DNA from: a virus
Reading direction: 5' to 3' (one strand)
Length of the DNA stretch: 20,389 nt
Virus record (IMG/VR): IMGVR_UViG_3300037090_000062
Location: 1 to 20,389 of that record
Of the stretch, positions 1,645-15,152 are shown piece by piece; positions within the stretch are counted from its first letter, which is position 1, and each line of letters begins with the position of its first letter. Position numbers and translations under genes: made by a program. The notes beneath the pieces were generated by a model. That model did no database searches. It was not told where the DNA came from and worked only from the letters and a program-made list of their open reading frames with translations.

Positions 1645-4600
1645 ATGGCACTATTCGGCAGCTATGCACCCCCCGGAGTCTACACAACAGTCCAGATAGC
1701 ACAGGCAGGGCAGCCACTTTTTGGTAACGCCCGCATCCCGGTAATCATCGGCGAGGGTCAGGAGTACTTCGAGCAGGACAACGTCGAAATGTTCCGTGGC
1801 TCAAGTGCCAGCGCCGACGAGCAGGTGGTGAACGAGAATATCTCGAACCAGGTGACCTCAATCACCAACAAGTTCAACACTACTTATCATCCTGTGACGA
1901 ACGGTTCCGGCAAAGGCGTGGTCACCGCCGACCCCAGCAAGGTGCAGATTGTCGTAGACGGCATCCCCGCTACGGTCATCTCCTTGGACGGAGCTACTGG
2001 TGACTTCACCACGGCTGAGCTTATCACTCCGGGTCAGAACGTGGAAATAAGTTACTACTTCAAGCGGGGCGACACTCTCATCCCCAATGAAAACGAGTCG
2101 GACCAAGTTCCCAGCTTTGCTGCGTTGACGATTTCGGATGTGTACAGCCCTCCCAACTCCATAATCATCAGCACCTCGCTCCCCGGCGTGACCGGAAATA
2201 GCGTGACGCTGGCCATCACCGACGACACACTGTCTTCGTCTCCAGGAACCGGCGTGCTTGACACGCAGGCTGTCTCCGGGGCAGGAACGGACGCCATCTC
2301 CATCGACATCGCCAAGGTCGGCGGCGGCAAGCGGACCCTCTTGGATATTTACCACCTTGTCACTGCCGGTATCCCGACGCTTGACGCCGGTTTCCTGATG
2401 GCGACCAAGCCTGCCGTTGACTCTCCTCCCGATATCATAGCAGCAACTACCATGTCGGCTACCCATCTTGCCGGTGGTCTCGGACCCAATACCAACAAAG
2501 TGTTCAAGGTTGAGCATGCCCCCATCGTGGACGGCACCAACGGCGGTGTCGTGACGACTGACCCGAATAAGGTTACGGTCTTCGTCAATGGCGTTAAGGT
2601 GGATGTCTCCGCAGTGGACGGGCTTTACGGGTATGTCACCCTGACCAACTCGGTGACTTTTCCCTCGACGGTGACCATCACTTACTACACTAACACCTAC
2701 CAGAATACCTCCGACATCATCCCCGCCCAGAACGTATCGGTCATCACTGAGGTCGGTCTCGGTCCTAACCGAGCAGACTTCGTCCAAGACACCGATTATG
2801 TCCTCGGCAAGGACTCCAACAAAAATAGCATCATCAACTGGGGAGCCAGCACCGTCACCTCTGTCGGTGCGACTACCACAGCGGCAACGCCGTTTGGTCC
2901 AACCGACATCGTGACCACTCTCGTTGACGAGCATGTCTACCTCCGTCTATGCGCCGGGGTGACGAACGGCAAGAACCTCGTATTCACCACCCCCGACAGC
3001 GTGGTGGACGGGAGCGGGCTGAGCGTAAACACCGACGACCCGACCAAGGTTGCGGTCTATATCGGCGTCAACCCCGTAGAGGCCTTGGAAGGCGGTGCCG
3101 TCCGGGTTATTGACCTTTCCGGCGATACCGGTAAGTTCACCCTTTACAACGCCCCGCTCTACGGGACCAACGTATACGCCAGCTATTACCGCAACACCCT
3201 GAATGACCATACCTATACAGCTACGGTCGTCACCCCCGGCATCTCCGGGCAGGGCACTTATACCCTGAAAGATGAGGTCGGGCGGGTCCTGCCGGTGGTC
3301 AGTTTTGATGCCACGGACAGTGTCATCACCGAGTCCGGTCCGTTCAACCAGACCGGCATCGTGTGGCCGTTTGCCTTCCCAGACTTGTATACCTCTCCGG
3401 GCGAAGTGGACGAGACCGTCACCCTTACGTTCCAAGACGACGGGTATACCAAGGACGTGGACCCCGGCGCTCAAGCCTACCTGAATACTCAAGGTCTTCT
3501 GTTCTTCTGCACCACTCCGGGCGACGGCGGCGATGCTATCACGGTTACCTTCAGCAATACGGGGAGCTTCGGTGTTGTAGTCATCGGAAATGCAATTGTC
3601 TTCAATGGTGTGACGACCACAAATCAAATCGTAACCCTAGTCGGGGCGGGCATCAGCACAACTTTCGGAACGGTCCTTACTCAGCTTGTGGAGACCGGAA
3701 CCGTTAGCACTGCCGCTGCCCTTCATCTGGCGGGAGGCGTTGACCCCACCAACCCACTGCCCTACTCTCTGCGTTATATCGTGACCTCCAGCAACCCTAA
3801 GGGGTCCGCAGGCGAGGGTTACCTTGACCAGACTTACATTGACAAGGCTACCGGGCTGAAGTTTACCATCGTGGCCCCACAGGATGCTCTGAACTACGGA
3901 TATACCACGCTTCCGACGCCCCAGTACAACCTCCAGCCGGGCGACACGCTGGTGTTCCAAGTCAGCAGTGAGGCGGTACGCTACACAGGCACAACCTATG
4001 TGCCCTATAGCCTTGCCGAGTCAAACAACCTCATCGCCATCGGCGGTCTCCAGACCGAGGTCATCACGACCTACGGTGCCAACGTCGGTGACACCGCCCT
4101 CGTGCAGACGTTCAACAAGTCCGGCAACAGCCCATTGGTCGGGGAATACTACTACACCTCCTTCCAGACCGCCAAGCAGCCCTCCGACTTTGCTGTCCAC
4201 ATGTACCAGAAGGGCTCGGATGCCTATAACGCCTACGGCGCTCCTAGCACCATCAACCGGGTGTCCCTCGGTATTCAGTTCATGGTCGGGAACGGGGCGC
4301 AGCAGTTTGGCGTCGTGCAGGTTCCGAAGCAGACTGGTCTCAACATCGCCTCGGACTCCAGTTTCATCGCTGCCATCCAGTCGCTCTTGCCCGCTCTACC
4401 TGGATTACAGACCAAGGCGAACGTCATCGTCCCGCTGAGCACCTCGACCACGGTGCATCAGTTCCTCAGCCGCCAGTTGATTACACAGGCTGGTCCGAGG
4501 AACAAGGGCGAGGCAATTGGGTTCGTCGGCTACAGCACCTTCACCGGCTATGCACAGGCGATGGCCAACGCACGGGCACTCTCGAACGCCCGCATGATTG

Positions 4601-5202
4601 CCATCGGTATGCCAGCGGCAGGGGTGCTGCTCACCAATACCCAGACGGCCCAGCAGACCGAGTATGCCGTGGACGGCAGCTTCATGGCAGCCGCCATGGC
4701 GGGACTCAACATCAACCCGTCCAACGATGTGGCCACCACGCTGACCAACCAGAACCTCGTCGGGTTCTCTCGCTTGCTCGTGCAGTACGACGACACGGTG
4801 ATGAACCAGATGGCGACAGCCGGGCTGGTCTGCCTGACCAATAACAACGGGGCGCTCAACATCCGCCACTACAAGAGCACCGACCCGAGCAACCCCATCA
4901 CGTCCGAGCCGACCTGCACAACCATCACGGACTATGTGGCACAGTTATTCCGCTCCGACATGAAGCAGTTCATCGGTCGCAAGCTGGTATCCGGTTTGGT
5001 CACGGACATAAACGTGGTTGCTAACGCACGCTTGCAGTCCTTGGCAAGCCCAACACCGGGTCAGATAATCAACGGTTACAACCCACCGAACGTGGTGCAA
5101 GACCCGACTGACCCCACGACGGTGGATGTGACTATAACTTTTCGGCCCGTCTTTTCGTTGCTGTATGTCAGCATTGTGTTCTCGGTGACTACGAGTCTTT
5201 AA
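1645..5202 (+). CDS. Contractile tail sheath protein, unusually long
   Basis: This 1185-residue protein is recognised as a tail sheath, the subunit that forms the contractile outer cylinder of myovirus tails. The N-terminus has the typical opening APPGVYTTVQ followed by ARIPVIIGEG. The C-terminal roughly 380 residues are sheath-like: a helical stretch with ANARALSNARMIAIGMPAAG, then LVGFSRLLVQYDD, FRSDMKQFIGRKLVSG and a terminal beta hairpin VDVTITFRPVFSLLYVSI. Many sheaths have 450-700 residues; the extra length lies in residues about 80-760, which are Thr/Val/Gly-rich and beta-like, with three copies of a 60-75 residue module and a second repeated module. These probably decorate the outer surface of the tail. 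The start ATG follows AGGAGA at good spacing. A G/C-rich hairpin follows the stop. Confidence 0.9.
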   Translation: MALFGSYAPPGVYTTVQIAQAGQPLFGNARIPVIIGEGQEYFEQDNVEMFRGSSASADEQVVNENISNQVTSITNKFNTTYHPVTNGSGKGVVTADPSKVQIVVDGIPATVISLDGATGDFTTAELITPGQNVEISYYFKRGDTLIPNENESDQVPSFAALTISDVYSPPNSIIISTSLPGVTGNSVTLAITDDTLSSSPGTGVLDTQAVSGAGTDAISIDIAKVGGGKRTLLDIYHLVTAGIPTLDAGFLMATKPAVDSPPDIIAATTMSATHLAGGLGPNTNKVFKVEHAPIVDGTNGGVVTTDPNKVTVFVNGVKVDVSAVDGLYGYVTLTNSVTFPSTVTITYYTNTYQNTSDIIPAQNVSVITEVGLGPNRADFVQDTDYVLGKDSNKNSIINWGASTVTSVGATTTAATPFGPTDIVTTLVDEHVYLRLCAGVTNGKNLVFTTPDSVVDGSGLSVNTDDPTKVAVYIGVNPVEALEGGAVRVIDLSGDTGKFTLYNAPLYGTNVYASYYRNTLNDHTYTATVVTPGISGQGTYTLKDEVGRVLPVVSFDATDSVITESGPFNQTGIVWPFAFPDLYTSPGEVDETVTLTFQDDGYTKDVDPGAQAYLNTQGLLFFCTTPGDGGDAITVTFSNTGSFGVVVIGNAIVFNGVTTTNQIVTLVGAGISTTFGTVLTQLVETGTVSTAAALHLAGGVDPTNPLPYSLRYIVTSSNPKGSAGEGYLDQTYIDKATGLKFTIVAPQDALNYGYTTLPTPQYNLQPGDTLVFQVSSEAVRYTGTTYVPYSLAESNNLIAIGGLQTEVITTYGANVGDTALVQTFNKSGNSPLVGEYYYTSFQTAKQPSDFAVHMYQKGSDAYNAYGAPSTINRVSLGIQFMVGNGAQQFGVVQVPKQTGLNIASDSSFIAAIQSLLPALPGLQTKANVIVPLSTSTTVHQFLSRQLITQAGPRNKGEAIGFVGYSTFTGYAQAMANARALSNARMIAIGMPAAGVLLTNTQTAQQTEYAVDGSFMAAAMAGLNINPSNDVATTLTNQNLVGFSRLLVQYDDTVMNQMATAGLVCLTNNNGALNIRHYKSTDPSNPITSEPTCTTITDYVAQLFRSDMKQFIGRKLVSGLVTDINVVANARLQSLASPTPGQIINGYNPPNVVQDPTDPTTVDVTITFRPVFSLLYVSIVFSVTTSL
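1882..3198 (+). repeat. Three diverged copies of a beta module within the sheath
   Basis: Protein-level repeats lie at sheath residues about 80-141 (1882-2067), 286-352 (2500-2700) and 446-518 (2980-3198). Each copy has the order: small Gly/Asn-rich turn; DP(S/N/T)KV; a strand with VDG, VNG or IGV; (S/D)G-x-(T/Y)G; a final strand ending in (S/T)YY. Recurring words are TADPSKVQIVVDG, TTDPNKVTVFVNG and DDPTKVAVYIG. The copies are clearly diverged at DNA level, so the duplication is old. Confidence 0.75.
2179..3756 (+). repeat. Two copies of a second module in the sheath ending in HLAGG
   Basis: Sheath residues about 179-284 (2179-2496) and 624-704 (3514-3756) both begin with a PG-x-GG/GN turn and a hydrophobic strand (GNSVTLAITDD; GDAITVTFSNT). 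Both end in an Ala-rich helix running into HLAGG (HLAGGLGPNTN; HLAGGVDPTNP). The middle parts are poorly conserved. This looks like a second duplicated surface domain interleaved with the first repeat family. Confidence 0.6.
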
Positions 5203-5207
5203 TTACA

Positions 5208-5243
5208 TGAGGAGGGGAAGGGTAATGACTCTTCCCCTCCTCA
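5208..5243 (+). other. Long GC-rich hairpin after the sheath gene
   Basis: Bases 5208-5220 (TGAGGAGGGGAAG) pair perfectly with 5231-5243 (CTTCCCCTCCTCA) to give a 13-bp stem. A G-T pair and a G-C pair extend it inward to a TAATGA loop. It starts six bases after the sheath stop. No T run follows, so it is not a classical intrinsic terminator. It could limit read-through, protect the 3' end of sheath mRNA or mark a processing site. Confidence 0.7.
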
Positions 5244-5258
5244 AACTAAGGTGGCATA

Positions 5259-5723
5259 ATGCAGGTAAATCCTGTCATAACCCAAGCGAACGGCGTTATC
5301 AGCATCCGCTTACAGGCTTTGTTCATCGGCGACCCTGACGACGCTACAGATAAGGCGTTGATTGCGGCATATGGCGACCCACAGGTTTCCCTCGTAGGGA
5401 ACGGAACCTTTATAACCCCCCTGCCTGGGTCCAGCCCCTCTGTCAACTTCAGCTTTACCTTCCCGACCAGCGAGTATTTCGTCGGGATAACCACTCAGAT
5501 GTCCGGCAAGACGATCAAGTTCATGACCTCGCTGCCCAGCACGCCGCCGCTATGTAACCCGAACAGTTCGGCACCTCAGCAGGGTCCACTGGATTGCCTT
5601 ACTATGTATCCGGCGTATGCGCTGGAGGCGTGGTACGCGGCGATGGTAAACTCAATCACCGCCGCCCTGACGGCGCTCAGGAACCTGTCACTGGTTCCGT
5701 CACTTCCGCCAGTCGATATTTAG
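5259..5723 (+). CDS. Hypothetical protein, probable tail-associated
   Basis: This 154-residue protein has no family I can name. It begins with beta-like sequence (VISIRLQALFIG), has a Gly/Pro/Ser-rich middle, FSFTFPTSEYFVG near residues 63-75, two Cys in a PLCNPNSS...DCLTMYP segment, and ends in an Ala-rich amphipathic helix (AWYAAMVNSITAALTALRNL). There is no signal peptide or convincing membrane span. The ATG follows AAGGTGG, a modest ribosome-binding site. It is separated from the sheath by a hairpin and its stop codon TAG overlaps the AGGAGA site of the next gene, which implies co-translation with that gene. Position just after the sheath suggests a tail role, but this is inference only. 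Confidence 0.65.
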   Translation: MQVNPVITQANGVISIRLQALFIGDPDDATDKALIAAYGDPQVSLVGNGTFITPLPGSSPSVNFSFTFPTSEYFVGITTQMSGKTIKFMTSLPSTPPLCNPNSSAPQQGPLDCLTMYPAYALEAWYAAMVNSITAALTALRNLSLVPSLPPVDI

Positions 5724-5732
5724 GAGAGAAGG

Positions 5733-8003
5733 ATGAAATCCAAGCTCATCAACCGCCGTAAGAAGGCCACCGTGCTGGTCAGCCCGAAGACGCTCAGGAC
5801 GGCCATCCAGGAGGGAAAGAACATCATTCCAATCCTCCAGTCCACGAAGGACCCAAAGGCACAGCAGCTTATGAAGGCCGTCCAATGGCTCGAACGGGTG
5901 GAGAAGTCCCCCATGGGGAGAACCAACTTGGATGACCAAGCATACCCGCAGTATGCCCGAACAGTCCAGCAGTATGTGCGATGGATAAGCCAGCTTGCGG
6001 GAACCTTCCGTAAAAGCACCAACATGGAGCAGACCGAAGTACCGGAGGCTGCCATGCAAGTAGCCTCGGTGGGGTCTGACCCGTGGGTGACAGACAGGGA
6101 CGAGAAGTCGGAGGCTAAGATGCCTGAAAAGGCAGAGGTACCTCGTTTGGCAGCACAGAAAAAGATAGCCCAGCCGGGAGTCCAGCCGGGAATTCCTCCC
6201 AGCGCTCCTCCTCCCCCCAAGGGCATGGGAGCACCTTCATCGGGCGCACCGCAGGCGGTAGCGCCGGGGACGGCACCGGCCGCCTCTGGTCCCGCCTCCG
6301 CCCCAGGAACGGCACCCGCACCCGTGAAGCAGGCTCCCCCTGTCACACGGGCAGGGAACGGAGACATCAACGCTGACTTGAAGCAGATGGGCAGCGAGAC
6401 CCTTGCCAATATCGTCTCGGCCGTAGCCAAGAACGTGGAACTCAATGACAAGGCGGCATATGACTTTATGGAAGCACTTAGCAGGGAACTGAAAGGACGC
6501 CCCGTGGAAATGCAACAGGCAACAGGAACCAGAGCAGCATCCATGAAGAAGGCGTTGAGCCTCTATGATGGCAACAGGACAGCCACAGGCGAGATGACGC
6601 AGTCGGAAGCCGATAACCCCGAGGAGTGGCCCATCCACCATGCCATCGCCCAGGCGGTCGGCGGCAAGGTCAAGGCATTTGACGTGTACCAAGGACCCTA
6701 CATCCTCATCGGCTCGGAGATTCGTGACCAGGGCGTCTATGCGCCAGCAACCCCGATGGCGGGAACCGTCCGTCTCTGGGTACAGGCAGAAGGGGACGGA
6801 GGGCTGTTCACCGTCTACAACGAGGATAACAAGCAGCAGAGTGAGCCGTTCCCGTGGGACGACGAGGCTGCCGCAATCGAGGCCGCCAAGGGTGTCCTCG
6901 GGGAAGGTGGGGAAGAGGCTGAGATGGAGAACCTTTGCATGGCCAGTCTGAAGCTTGCCGGAATAGAAGAAAGAAACTCGTTCGGGGATACCGAGGTCAC
7001 CACGGACAGTGGTCTCCAAGGCTGGAAGGGGCGTCTCCAGAACGGCTATGCAGACTTCGAGGAGTTCGCATCCTACGCCGGGATGTATGGTCTTGCCGAG
7101 CGTCTTGGGTTCCAGAGTGCCGAGGAGGCTTGGGAGGCAAATCCTACAGTTCAAGGCTCTGTCAACCCTTCTGACTTCCGGGTCGCCAGTGTCAAGACCG
7201 CCGTCACTCCTCCTGGCATCAGCGAGGAGACGGCCCACGAAATCAAGGACGAGTACCCTGGTGAGAAGGACAAGGCCTACGCCACGATGTGGTCAATTCA
7301 CAACAAGAAGAAGGACAAGAAGGGAACCTTCCGTGAGAGGCTAGCCTATCTCCATCGGGAGCTTGACGCCTATGTTCTCAAGATGGCGGCCGGGTCGGAG
7401 GGAAGCTCTTGGTTCGTGGAAAACCAAGACACGATGGATGTGAAAGACGGCGACAAAAATGTGAAGGAAATCGCCGAGGCCCACGGGCTGGAGGACGAGG
7501 GTCCGGTCAAGCTGGAGCGCCCTGAGACCAAGCTGCCCATCACCCTGAACGGGAGCAAGAATGCCGCCGAGGAGATGAGGGCGACCAAGGCCTTGAAGCA
7601 GGTGGAGAAGCTCTCCGACCGGCTCAAGGAGATGTACCTCGACGCCAAGGAGATAACCAACGCCAATGATTCCCGCCCCGTGCGGGAGGCAGTGGAGGCT
7701 ATCTATCGGGCATACAACCAGCTCGGACAGGCCGCCAAGGTCCTTGGAAAGCAACAGATGCAGGAAGATGCCGAGGAGGAAGCCTTAAAGGTGAAAGGTA
7801 AGGACGGGAAGAAGAAGGGCAGTCTGCTGGACGGGCTGGTCTTAGCGACGGAGGATGACGATGACGATGATGAGGTAACGTGTGAAGGGTGCGGAAAGCC
7901 TCATACCAATCGGCACGGTGGGTATGTCTCCGAGTTTTGCAAAGCGTGTGAGAAGAAGGACGAGGCGGGAAAGAAGAAGACCAAGTTTAAGACCAAAGAG
8001 TAG
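5733..8003 (+). CDS. Large Pro/Ala-rich multidomain protein with C-terminal zinc knuckle
   Basis: This 756-residue protein is of unknown function and probably virion-associated. In order it has: a basic N-terminus (KSKLINRRKKA) and helices to about residue 95; a low-complexity Pro/Ala/Gly linker (about 147-206); a helical segment (210-275); a possible small beta domain (about 300-375, with YILIGSEIRDQGVYAP and GTVRLWVQAEGDGG); acidic and helical stretches; a segment around 492-528 with VKTAVTPPGISEETAHEIKD and KAYATMWSIHNKK, a helical motif I associate with phage structural proteins; a helical segment about 610-680; an Asp run (708-713); and a zinc-type cluster CEGCGKPH...FCKAC at 717-739 before a Lys-rich tail. 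The start follows AGGAGAGAAGG. The next gene, an endonuclease, begins two bases after its stop. A scaffold, internal head or tail-assembly role is possible; none is demonstrated. Confidence 0.75.
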   Translation: MKSKLINRRKKATVLVSPKTLRTAIQEGKNIIPILQSTKDPKAQQLMKAVQWLERVEKSPMGRTNLDDQAYPQYARTVQQYVRWISQLAGTFRKSTNMEQTEVPEAAMQVASVGSDPWVTDRDEKSEAKMPEKAEVPRLAAQKKIAQPGVQPGIPPSAPPPPKGMGAPSSGAPQAVAPGTAPAASGPASAPGTAPAPVKQAPPVTRAGNGDINADLKQMGSETLANIVSAVAKNVELNDKAAYDFMEALSRELKGRPVEMQQATGTRAASMKKALSLYDGNRTATGEMTQSEADNPEEWPIHHAIAQAVGGKVKAFDVYQGPYILIGSEIRDQGVYAPATPMAGTVRLWVQAEGDGGLFTVYNEDNKQQSEPFPWDDEAAAIEAAKGVLGEGGEEAEMENLCMASLKLAGIEERNSFGDTEVTTDSGLQGWKGRLQNGYADFEEFASYAGMYGLAERLGFQSAEEAWEANPTVQGSVNPSDFRVASVKTAVTPPGISEETAHEIKDEYPGEKDKAYATMWSIHNKKKDKKGTFRERLAYLHRELDAYVLKMAAGSEGSSWFVENQDTMDVKDGDKNVKEIAEAHGLEDEGPVKLERPETKLPITLNGSKNAAEEMRATKALKQVEKLSDRLKEMYLDAKEITNANDSRPVREAVEAIYRAYNQLGQAAKVLGKQQMQEDAEEEALKVKGKDGKKKGSLLDGLVLATEDDDDDDEVTCEGCGKPHTNRHGGYVSEFCKACEKKDEAGKKKTKFKTKE

Positions 8004-8005
8004 CT

Positions 8006-8719
8006 ATGGATTCTGGTGTGTATCTAATCCGAAATACCGTAAACCAAAAAGTTTACGTGGGAAGTTCAAAGGATATACCACATCGCTGGAAGGAACATCG
8101 TGCAGAACTTGTAGCGGGAAAGCACGACAATCCAAAGTTGCTAAATGCCTTCAGGAAGTATGGCGGCGAGGTTTTTAAGATTGAAGTTTTCTGCTCTTGC
8201 TTGCCAGATAAGTTGCTGGAAGAAGAGCAAAAAGCTATAGAAGAATTAAAAGCGGTGGAAGAAGGCTATAACATAGCCACTAAGGCAGATAGACCCCCAT
8301 CGCCAAAAGGAAAACTGGTAACTGAGTCCCATCGAAAACATCTCAGTGAAGCAAAGATGGGGTTGAAGGCAACACCGGAGCATACAGAGGCTCTTCGACA
8401 AGGGTGGGTTAAGCGTCGGGCACGAGGATTGGGAACACATTCGGAAGAGACTCGTAAAAGGCGGTCGCTAAGCCTAAGAGGTAAAAAGAAACCAGAGTCT
8501 TTTGTTGTGTTTATGAAGAATCGTCAACAAGGGACCAATGAACTTGCAGCCTTGCGAGATTTTTCATCTCGTAGAACGCCAGAGTACATTAGCTGGCAGG
8601 GAAGAAAAGGTATGGCAAAACAATTGGGGCGTCAATTCAACGAGCCTAGACCAGAACAGTGTTTCTATGAAAAAACACTTCCAACCCCTTTGATTGAATA
8701 TGCCGCCTTAGCGGCTTAG
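8006..8719 (+). CDS. GIY-YIG homing endonuclease (free-standing) with NUMOD3-like repeats
   Basis: This 237-residue protein has an N-terminal GIY-YIG nuclease domain: GVYLIRN at 4-10 and KVYVGSS at 15-21, then candidate catalytic Arg27, Glu74 and the YN pair at 88-89. The DNA-binding half has two NUMOD3-like segments (SHRKHLSEAKMG near 108-119; SEETRKRRSLSLRG near 146-159). The family makes site-specific nicks or breaks that drive copying of mobile introns or of the gene itself. The gene is packed between virion genes: it starts two bases after the upstream stop, and its own TAG overlaps the AGGAGG site of the tail-tube gene. Its base composition is more AT-rich than its neighbours, a sign of separate origin. 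It is not inside the intron that lies only 30 bases downstream, which is unusual. Confidence 0.92.
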   Translation: MDSGVYLIRNTVNQKVYVGSSKDIPHRWKEHRAELVAGKHDNPKLLNAFRKYGGEVFKIEVFCSCLPDKLLEEEQKAIEELKAVEEGYNIATKADRPPSPKGKLVTESHRKHLSEAKMGLKATPEHTEALRQGWVKRRARGLGTHSEETRKRRSLSLRGKKKPESFVVFMKNRQQGTNELAALRDFSSRRTPEYISWQGRKGMAKQLGRQFNEPRPEQCFYEKTLPTPLIEYAALAA

Positions 8720-8723
8720 GAGG
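8702..8723 (+). promoter_or_regulatory. Hairpin plus ribosome-binding site of the tail-tube gene
   Basis: GCCGC (8702-8706) and GCGGC (8711-8715) form a short perfect stem with loop CTTA, within the last codons of the endonuclease. It ends just before the strong AGGAGG (8718-8723), which is 10 bases from the tail-tube ATG at 8734. This strong site identifies 8734 as a real start even though the reading frame closes after five codons in genomic DNA, which is what reveals the intron. Confidence 0.6.
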
Positions 8724-8733
8724 AATAAACAAC

Positions 8734-9627
8734 ATGGCACAAGGTGGCTAGATAGATTGGCCACGGTAAACCCACTCTGATTGACTCGAAAGCTGAGATG
8801 CCAACGAGGCGGAACCCGATAGGGACCGTGAGAGACTAAGCGAGAGGGCACCCAAGAGGGTGATGCAATAGTCCGAACATTACGGGAAACGAACCGTAAG
8901 AGGTTGGCAGAAATGACCAGCCCCGCTTGAAAAAGCGAGTCACACTTTTGATATCTATCAGCAAGGAGCTTCACCCCAGACGGAGTCCGTAATCTCGTCT
9001 CGCTTCAAGATTTTCACGGATGTCGTCGGCGTGGGCAAGTTCGTGAAGCTGGGCGTCACGTCCTCCTTCCAAATCTCCGAGACCCGCACAGTAGAGGCCA
9101 TCCGTGGGCTAGGCTACGGTGACCAGGTCGCCGAGCTTGTGCCCGGTGTCACCGAGCCGCTGAGCATCACTATCCAGCGCACATGCCTTTACCTTGCCAA
9201 CATCATGCAGGTATTGGGCTATAAAGCTGGTGTCTCTGGCGGAGTAAGGTCCATCCGTCATCATCGGTGGCCCTTCGACATCAAGACCGAGATTGTATTC
9301 TCCCAGCTTGCCTCGGAGGACCCGAGCAATGCTTCTGGCTTCGGCGGCGGGACGCCGGACCTAACGACGGCGGATATCCCGAACGAGGGTGGGTTCAACA
9401 ACCTTGGTAATTCTGGGCTACAGGCCGTGGCTACCGTATACGAAGGGTGTTGGATTAGTAATTTCACGACAGGATACGCCATCGAGACCGCTGCTGTCAA
9501 CGAGAATGTTACCGTATCAGTTACTGACATCTTTGATGTTAGCGGAACAGTTTACGGTGAGTTCCTTGATAGTGGCCTCGGAAGTGGAGATGCCACTGGT
9601 CGTAGCTTGCTGTATTCAATCAGCTAG
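8734..9627 (+). CDS. Tail tube protein, split by a group I intron (exons 8734-8749 and 8951-9627)
   Basis: The spliced product is predicted at 230 residues. It reads like a myovirus tail-tube (gp19-type) protein, which forms the inner channel within the sheath. Exon 1 encodes MAQGG plus one base of codon 6 and is then interrupted by an in-frame TAG. Exon 2 continues IYQQGASPQTESVISSRFKI and GKFVKLGVTSSFQISETRTV. Joining after T8749 and before A8951 gives TAT (Tyr) and keeps one open frame of exactly 231 codons including stop. The second half is beta-rich with a Gly-rich loop (about residues 134-142). A start at an internal GTG (9031) is the longest uninterrupted reading but would lose 27 conserved-looking residues and has no clear ribosome-binding site. 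The tail-tube call rests on pattern and on its company with the sheath. The 3' third is somewhat AT-richer, next to the downstream endonuclease. Confidence 0.85.
8750..8950 (+). ncRNA. ORF-less self-splicing group I intron (about 201 nt)
   Basis: P1: exon GTGGCT (8744-8749) pairs with GGCCAC (8759-8764), with the required terminal U-G pair at the 5' splice site. P7: GACTA (8834-8838, in GAGACTAAG) pairs with TAGTC (8869-8873, in CAATAGTCCGAAC), matching the R and S core elements. P8: CACCC/GGGTG (8849-8853 and 8858-8862). P9-type stems: TTACGG/CCGTAA (8880-8885 and 8894-8899) and CGCTT/AAGCG closed by a GAAA tetraloop (8924-8937). P10: ATCTATC in exon 2 (8953-8959) pairs with GATAGAT in the intron (8751-8757). 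The final intron base is G8950. P3-P6 were not fully resolved by eye; CGG/CCG plus CCC/GGG at 8810-8828 is one part. There is no internal ORF. Confidence 0.9.
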
Positions 9628-9706: not shown

Positions 9707-10660
9707 GTGTTCAGCGTCTACAAAATCACCAATCTCCTCAACAGCCGATACTACTACGGCGTCCACGAAACCACCAATCCAAATGACGGCTATCTTGGCT
9801 CGGGAATTGCTATCAAGCGTGCCGTGAAGAAATACGGAAAACACAACTTCAAGAAGAGCGTCCTTTTCACATTTGAGAGTTCCACGGATGCTTATGCAAA
9901 AGAGGTAGAACTCTTGCGGGGAGCTCGTCAGGACCCGCTATGCTATAACCTACACGAGGGTGGGCAAGGTGGGTTCAAGTACATAAACGAGAACGGGCTT
10001 TCCGACCCCGCTAGGGCTGGGCATATAGCTAAAGAAAAGGGAAATACTGGGAGACCAAAAGGCTCAAAAGGGTGTGCTGCCTCCATTACTCCAGACTCTC
10101 GGTTGCTATGTCAATATGGATGTGGAAATCCTGCCACTTATTTAGTTGGAAAAAAAGAAAACCCGTGCTGTTCAAACCACCACGGTTCCTGTCCTGCTTA
10201 TCTTCAACATAAGAAAAGTATGCTAGTCAAACCGATAAGCAATTCTGGTATTTTATGTTTTTATAAATGTGGAAATCAAGCTAATTTTCTCTTGGGGATA
10301 CATCAAAAACCGTGTTGCTCTAAAACTTTTTATAAATGTCAAGGCCACTGGAGAAACCTTCGGGATTTTAGTGACTCGGAACTAAAAAAGAAATCCGAAC
10401 TTACGATGCTAGCCAAGTATGGGGTCACCAATCCCAGCTTTAGCATAGAGATTAAAGCCAAACGAGACGCCACTAATATTGAGCGTTTTGGTGGTCTCAG
10501 CCCCTCATGCAACCCCACAATAAATAAAAAACGGATGCAAACAAATCAGCAAAGGTTTGGCGGACCTGCCCCCGCCTGCAATCCTGCAATAATGGCAAAA
10601 ATATGGGCAACAAAGCACAAAAAATTGGCTGAACAAAAATCCAATCTTCCAGTATCTTAG
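9707..10660 (+). CDS. GIY-YIG homing endonuclease with tandem Cys-rich repeats
   Basis: This 317-residue protein starts at a GTG, seven bases after GGAGG. The nuclease domain occupies about residues 1-95: SVYKITN at 3-9, YYYGVH at 15-20 (a YYG variant of YIG), candidate Arg38 and Glu66, and YNLHEGG at 80-86. A linker with GRPKGSKG follows. Residues 135-162 and 184-211 are a tandem Cys repeat with identical spacing (C-x3-C-x14-C-C-x6-C, period 49). The C-terminus has two to three copies of a KYGVTNPS / RFGG...CNP element (about 237-295), a DNA-binding repeat style seen in phage endonucleases. The N-terminal half is GC-rich like the phage, the C-terminal half clearly AT-richer, suggesting a fused origin. 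It lies just after the tail-tube gene and its translation is probably limited by the leader hairpin. Confidence 0.9.
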   Translation: MFSVYKITNLLNSRYYYGVHETTNPNDGYLGSGIAIKRAVKKYGKHNFKKSVLFTFESSTDAYAKEVELLRGARQDPLCYNLHEGGQGGFKYINENGLSDPARAGHIAKEKGNTGRPKGSKGCAASITPDSRLLCQYGCGNPATYLVGKKENPCCSNHHGSCPAYLQHKKSMLVKPISNSGILCFYKCGNQANFLLGIHQKPCCSKTFYKCQGHWRNLRDFSDSELKKKSELTMLAKYGVTNPSFSIEIKAKRDATNIERFGGLSPSCNPTINKKRMQTNQQRFGGPAPACNPAIMAKIWATKHKKLAEQKSNLPVS

Positions 10661-14350: not shown

Positions 14351-14360
14351 GAGGTGAATG

Positions 14361-15152
14361 ATGCGTGTACTGGATATGTTAGGGAAGACCTATGGAAACC
14401 TGACCGTGATACGGCGGGATGCTAACTCAGTCGGAGGGCAGGCCAGATGGGTAGTTAAATGTAACTGTCCTGAATCAATAGAGTTTACGGTTATCGGAAA
14501 TAATCTGAGAAGGGGAAATACCGTAAGTTGCCCACATATCAAAAGTAGCCGTGGATGCATCGCTATGGCAGAAACTCGTCAAAAGCTAAATGAGGAAATT
14601 GAAACAGAACTGGTAGGTAGAACATTCGGTAGTATTACTGTATTGAGCAAGTTTAGGGCAGCAAAAAGTGGGACATTGTGGCTGTGCTCGTGCTCTTGTG
14701 GAAGGGATAACCATCTTTTAGTTCGCACTGCTGCACTTCGTTCAGGCAGCCGTAAAGGATGTCGGTTTTGTAAAGCTGACCGGATGAGTCTGCCGACCAG
14801 TCAGGGGATGCGCAATCATCTTTTACGTGTTTATAAGTTGCAAGCTAAAAGAAGAGGGCTTTCATGGGAACTTACAGGAGAACAATTTGATGCTTTGACC
14901 CAAACTGCTTGTCACTATTGCGGTGACCCCCCATCAGATAAAAAGTCCAACCCTAGATTTAATGGTGCCTACAAATGTAATGGAATTGACCGTAAGAATA
15001 ACGACCTTGGTTATACATCCCCAAACTGCCTTCCATGTTGTCAATTTTGCAATAGGGCAAAATGGACCATGGGGTACCAAGAATTTGTTTGTTATCTTGA
15101 AAGGGTTAGTCAATTTCGTCTCAAAACACACGCTATTGAAATCTCTGTATAG
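14361..15152 (+). CDS. HNH homing endonuclease
   Basis: This protein has 263 residues if the second of two adjacent ATGs (14358, 14361) is used; GAGGTG at 14351-14356 fits 14361 better. (Residues below count from 14358.) The C-terminal HNH domain reads ACHYCGDPP (184-192), then NGIDRKNNDLGYTSPNC (208-224) and CCQFCNRAKWTM (227-238), the phage HNH type in which the first catalytic His position is Asp-Arg and Cys pairs hold a structural zinc. The N-terminal half has two copies of a small Cys-containing DNA-binding-like unit, GKTYGNLTVI...CNC...C (9-58) and GRTFGSITVL...CSCSCG...CRFC (87-138). Base composition is AT-rich against the neighbours. Its stop codon overlaps the AGGGGA ribosome-binding site of the protease gene, so it has inserted between the giant protein gene and the head module with no slack. 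Confidence 0.9.
   Translation: MRVLDMLGKTYGNLTVIRRDANSVGGQARWVVKCNCPESIEFTVIGNNLRRGNTVSCPHIKSSRGCIAMAETRQKLNEEIETELVGRTFGSITVLSKFRAAKSGTLWLCSCSCGRDNHLLVRTAALRSGSRKGCRFCKADRMSLPTSQGMRNHLLRVYKLQAKRRGLSWELTGEQFDALTQTACHYCGDPPSDKKSNPRFNGAYKCNGIDRKNNDLGYTSPNCLPCCQFCNRAKWTMGYQEFVCYLERVSQFRLKTHAIEISV

Follow-up and report, generated by a model that had tools for sequence, protein, structure and literature searches.

In collaborative homing as described for F-CphI, a free-standing endonuclease targets the insertion site of an intron and the intron shields the donor, and for F-CphI and the psbA intron of cyanophage S-PM2 it was demonstrated both that the intron-less allele is cut and that the intron confers protection (Zeng, Bonocora, Shub 2009, as described in PMC6083498). 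The locus analyzed here lies in a virus fragment of 20,389 nt (the window; IMG/VR record IMGVR_UViG_3300037090_000062), in which E1, like F-CphI (PMC6083498), is encoded by a free-standing endonuclease gene adjoining an intron-containing gene. F-CphI carries an Endo VII motif and psbA is a photosynthesis gene, whereas E1 is of the GIY-YIG, I-TevI type and its host gene is a virion gene. Compared with F-CphI, the pairing in the window recurs in seven loci and the transfer of a block is visible, while the cleavage by E1 is putative.

Other published systems resemble the window in different respects. In T3-like phages, an ORF-less intron and a free-standing endonuclease converge on one site, as they would in the window (PMC3984707, PMC10448857), but the phages and the host gene are different ones. 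MobE of T4 is a free-standing nuclease that mobilizes the intron of the neighboring nrdB gene in trans, as proposed for E1; however, it is an HNH nuclease, and the nrdB intron holds a defunct nuclease while the intron of the window holds none (Wilson and Edgell 2009, via PMC2988022). In ICP1, a gene of the GIY-YIG superfamily adjoins the intron that splits an essential gene without being part of that intron, as in the window, but it belongs to the T5orf172 subfamily, the split gene encodes the terminase, and the ICP1 case was itself deduced from the arrangement, in contrast to the I-TevI type and the virion gene found here (PMC10448857). I-TevI of T4 (1mk0, 1ln0) is the closest solved catalytic domain to E1 (42% identity over 94 columns), but it is encoded inside its own intron and has another C-terminal DNA-binding part, whereas E1 is free-standing. 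The BAKA intron of cluster J mycobacteriophages is also short (265 bp), endonuclease-less and located in a tail gene; unlike in the window, no adjacent partner nuclease is reported in the excerpted text of its description (PMC3706429). The known precedents for collaborative homing are F-CphI/psbA, the T3-like phages, mobE/nrdB and the ICP1 terminase; for the pair of the window, the comparative support is unusually good.

The split virion gene, E1 and the intron

The gene order of the window resembled the structural region of Tunturi_5, a Tunturiibacter jumbo phage (PMC11924767), and the nearest isolate of these soil jumbo phages has a host among the Acidobacteriota. The split protein was 66.7% identical to gp329 of Tunturi_5 and matched phrog_985 via its relatives. 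Both of these are annotated as “virion structural protein”, and no PDB relative of the split protein was found. The name “tail tube” given by an earlier sequence-only reading was not confirmed; the predicted fold was unusable (pLDDT 35). The gene was split after base 16, that is, within its first codons, and its coding sequence without positions 8750-8950 was MAQGGYIYQQGASPQ, the same reading as in uninterrupted relatives. The features of the locus are listed in Table 1.

Table 1. Positions of the features at the E1/intron locus of the window
Feature	Positions	Strand	Remarks
Upstream gene	5733..8003	+	left border of the putative mobile block just past its stop codon
E1, free-standing GIY-YIG homing endonuclease gene	8006..8719	+	ATG 8006, TAG 8717-8719, 237 aa
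AGGAGG ribosome-binding site of the virion gene	8718..8723	+	overlaps the E1 stop TAG 8717-8719; read from sequence
Exon 1, virion gene, ATGGCACAAGGTGGCT	8734..8749	+	last six bases GTGGCT are the exon side of P1
ORF-less group I intron	8750..8950	+	201 nt, terminal G; family covariation; empty alleles
Internal guide sequence GGCCAC (P1)	8759..8764	+	compensatory exon/guide change in L231
P3 5' strand	8771..8777	+	pairs with 8842-8848, pseudoknot; 7/7 pairs covary, 98.5% paired
P7 5' strand GACTA	8834..8838	+	pairs with TAGTC 8869-8873; invariant, neighboring pair covaries
Exon 2, virion structural gene	8951..9627	+	first base 8951 directly after the intron
E2, second free-standing GIY-YIG gene	9707..10660	+	GTG start; DUF7487 C-terminal part

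The sequence-only reading had placed one free-standing GIY-YIG gene 30 nt upstream of the intron and a second one behind the stop codon of the virion gene. Both were found as described, the former being E1 and the latter, E2, starting 79 nt past the stop codon. Relatives of E2 with 67-69% identity occupied the same slot behind intron-less virion genes (L015, L047 and L057 groups), and E2 was rejected as the partner of the intron since its close relatives sit behind intron-less copies. A third homing-endonuclease-like gene, of the HNH/Endo VII type (phrog_374, phrog_1035), was observed at 14358-15152 of the window.

E1 matched the Pfam GIY-YIG family (E=1.6e-10) and the catalytic domain of I-TevI (E=9e-25). 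Its residues Y6, Y17, G19, R27, H31, E74 and N89 were invariant across 16 relatives, its C-terminal module was RTPEYxxWxGRKGxA, and the C-terminal part was helical, with the last helices predicted at high confidence. Judged from its sequence, E1 is an intact I-TevI-type GIY-YIG protein with conserved catalytic residues and fold and with putative DNA cleavage activity. The E1 of the window also looked mosaic, its middle insert matching E1 of L063 and its C-terminal part that of L024, which suggests an exchange of modules between endonucleases at the E1 slot.

A pattern derived from the intron core returned 23 stretches in IMG/VR, from which 19 distinct members were aligned; the core pattern was absent from every shuffle of the window sequence, and the intron pattern had no exact match in 84,980 bacterial and archaeal genomes. 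P3 (a pseudoknot), P4-P6, P7, P8 and P9 were supported across the 19 members, with 93% of the cells paired, and 26 of the 43 pairs changed on both sides, which none of 500 shuffles equaled. P6, P8 and the pair adjoining P7 covaried, and the remainder of P7 was invariant. Among the six introns compared, P1 was represented as GUGGCU/GGCCAC with U.G at the 5' splice site, and the last base was G; in L231 the exon and the guide were both altered (UUGGCU/GGCCAA), a compensatory change by which the U.G was kept. A 7-bp candidate for P10, present in the window only and unconserved, was dropped. The identification as group I rests on covariation because Rfam gave no intron match at gathering or relaxed thresholds, not even at E<=10. 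The family is beyond the reach of the Rfam model, and an Rfam match is no defining biochemical feature. By its conserved pairings, 8750-8950 of the window is a compact group I intron with predicted splicing activity.

Empty alleles of the insertion site exist, for example in L002 and L009. The six complete introns in the virion gene were 197-209 nt long and none had an ORF or an ORF remnant, so that the canonical feature of a mobile intron, a nuclease encoded inside it, was absent from the six loci examined. The earlier statement that the intron is too short for a nuclease held, as 201 nt leaves no room for one.

Association and joint exchange of E1 and the intron

IMG/VR was searched three times with virion protein versions that diverge from one another, and 181 loci were obtained. 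Grouping at 97% DNA identity reduced them to 65 clusters, of which 64 could be used, and the intron covariance model was run over most of the surveyed loci. Six clusters carried the intron (window/L001, L014, L022, L062, L063 and L231), each with an E1 relative beside the virion gene. Since the E1 relative of L231 was on the opposite strand yet still adjacent to the virion gene, it is the position that is maintained, not co-transcription. The intron was absent from all 46 clusters that lacked E1, and the intron-only state was never seen among the 64 clusters. E1 was of one C-terminal class in 10 clusters and of another in 8, and the intron occurred in 6 of the former and 0 of the latter (Fisher p=2.8e-6, the class having been defined post hoc); because the class was named after the data had been seen, the value for the intron against any E1 (p=2.5e-4) is the safer one. 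The sequence-only reading had suggested a survey of co-occurrence in relatives; an independent distribution was looked for, and a one-way association without exception was found.

Intron-less loci with E1 of the same class at the same slot were L024, L033, L215 and L247, with E1 of L033 and L215 having diverged. Because these four clusters lack the intron, self-protection must be achieved in some other way for their E1s. Each of the four also lacked a C adjacent to the junction that was present in every intron-bearing exon, a difference suggestive of resistance through exon change but not significant against background. The other class was found without the intron in L023 (frame-shifted), L057, L079, L222, L235, L239 (fragment), L265 and L269; the frameshift in L023 (3352-3967) is what a homing endonuclease in decay would show, but it may also be an error of sequencing.

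A scan with the P1 region only recovered the intron-bearing loci again, plus a single chance match and L277, a seventh intron locus whose contig ends inside the intron with an E1 remnant beside it. At L277:11932-13053, an IS605-type TnpB gene took the place of the first ~37 E1 residues, and the homing endonuclease was thus broken by another mobile nuclease element. The relatives are metagenome contigs, in which assembly error is possible at single loci; the seven intron-bearing contigs carried seven different IMG/VR sample numbers. A wide search for E1 gave mostly GIY-YIG genes elsewhere and one more clear intron match (L153, 60 bits).

On a tree built from the virion protein minus its first residues, the intron state changed 6 times and the E1 class 10 times. 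In all five supported sister pairs, under most pairings, the E1 class changed the same way as the intron and never in the opposite way; with five independent pairs the sign test has a floor of p=0.0625. The distances of E1 and of the intron over six loci were not significantly correlated (Mantel r=0.32, p=0.13).

The closest pair, L014 and L009, displayed the exchanged segment directly. Their upstream genes were mostly 90-100% identical (about 97%) up to the stop codon, and about 97% DNA identity was reached again starting with base 1 of exon 2. The segment enclosed by these homologous flanks comprised a short spacer and exon 1 in L009, and in L014 it comprised E1, exon 1 and the intron, with a leader unlike that of L009. 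The right edge of the exchanged block was at the 3' splice site. As read from these two alleles, the exchanged unit is decided, namely E1 with leader, exon 1 and intron, and gain and loss both fit. The window compared with L002 had the same left border, the homology to the empty allele breaking after the upstream stop codon.

Exon co-conversion, a mark described for T4 introns (PMC2988022), was also observed. Within the first 54 coding nt of L062, 12 of 13 informative sites agreed with a second locus that has the intron, versus 23 of 110 further in (p=6e-7); the signal was also present in L022 (p=2.5e-5) and was weaker in the window (p=0.006). Beside the junction, the exon sequences of L062 and L022 were alike to each other and unlike those of their sisters. 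Taken at the level of sequence comparison, our results indicate that the intron and E1 spread as one unit, and from the block border and the co-conversion we infer cleavage at the insertion site.

Explanations of the pairing

We consider it probable that E1 and the intron are a collaborative-homing pair, with the cut site, the protection and the splicing as predicted below. E1 would most likely target the virion gene start in its uninterrupted form, at the insertion site or no more than a few tens of bases away from it. On co-infection, E1 would cut the intron-less allele of the competing phage, and repair from the donor would bring in exon 1 and the intron along with E1 and the short leader. 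By splitting the E1 target, the intron would protect the donor from its own nuclease, and the insertion would cost the virion gene little because the intron would remove itself from the mRNA by group I splicing. Collaborative homing had been raised in the sequence-only reading for both neighboring endonucleases; the one-way association, the joint gain and loss, the block and the co-conversion supported it well for E1, and it was given up for the protein of 9707-10660.

The main rival to collaborative homing is that E1 cuts elsewhere in the neighboring genes and that the intron merely lies within the co-conversion tract, with no protection of the donor. Many free-standing homing endonucleases do cut away from their own gene, T4 SegG and others among them (PMC2988022), and E1 was present without the intron in four same-class and eight other-class clusters. 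This explanation is nevertheless unlikely, since no case of the intron lacking E1 was found, the L014/L009 block ends on its right side at the 3' splice site itself, and the co-conversion in L062 and L022 was strongest beside the junction. It is hardly credible that this conserved region, as a hot spot of selfish elements, was invaded by the intron and by E1 in separate events. E1-type genes are indeed common at the slot, being present in 12 of the 58 clusters without the intron, and a further GIY-YIG gene, E2, lies on the other side of the virion gene, but the 6 of 6 scored intron-bearing clusters together with L277, over 6 changes on the tree, all had the same E1 class, and L014 and L009 differ by exchange of a block.

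The pairing could also be a stage of turnover in which E1 was recently expelled from the intron or is about to enter it, an alternative likewise raised for ICP1 (PMC10448857); such steps have been proposed for the origin of composite introns (PMC3984707, PMC10448857). We regard it as very improbable here, because the six complete introns contained neither an ORF nor a remnant and E1 keeps its slot beside intron-less genes as well as in both orientations. The earlier suggestion of an endonuclease about to invade the intron was accordingly unsupported at this site, where no virion-gene intron had an ORF and E1 can be inverted.

The intron family and the meaning of the pairing

The intron family was also found in capsid, portal and other genes, often with several copies per gene. 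In L090, a portal gene contained an ORF-less family intron (core 5805-5967), and a GIY-YIG/NUMOD3 gene (4979-5590) ended ~45 nt before the portal gene start; in its predicted gene layout, L090 is a repeat of the arrangement in the window. At several other loci, the split gene had a gene of Endo VII/HNH or LAGLIDADG-like type next to it or inside it. An endonuclease gene was present beside or within the split gene in ~10 of 13 other intron loci, where the density of endonucleases was high and some were perhaps inside the intron.

Several loci held more than one family intron. L062 had a second one (3111-3333; also in L099) in the same virion gene, 56 coding nt after the first, and one cut could move both. 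Two or more family introns lay within a short stretch in L091, L100, L082, L083 and L087, and L091 had three strong and up to three weaker intron matches within 2 kb.

Only a handful of cases of collaborative homing have been described, mostly in single phages. The present locus places a pair of mobile elements in a soil jumbo phage virion gene, and at one site the states “neither”, “nuclease only” and “both” occur in close sister alleles while “intron only” is missing. With these three states in sister alleles, it becomes possible to test directly where E1 cuts, whether the intron protects and in which order the events took place. A tentative possibility is that the phage introns of this family, ~200 nt long, generally gave up their own nucleases and rely on any neighboring free-standing GIY-YIG, HNH/Endo VII or LAGLIDADG endonuclease; if this were true, the pairing would be a lasting and common lifestyle, as opposed to a short stage on the way to composite introns.
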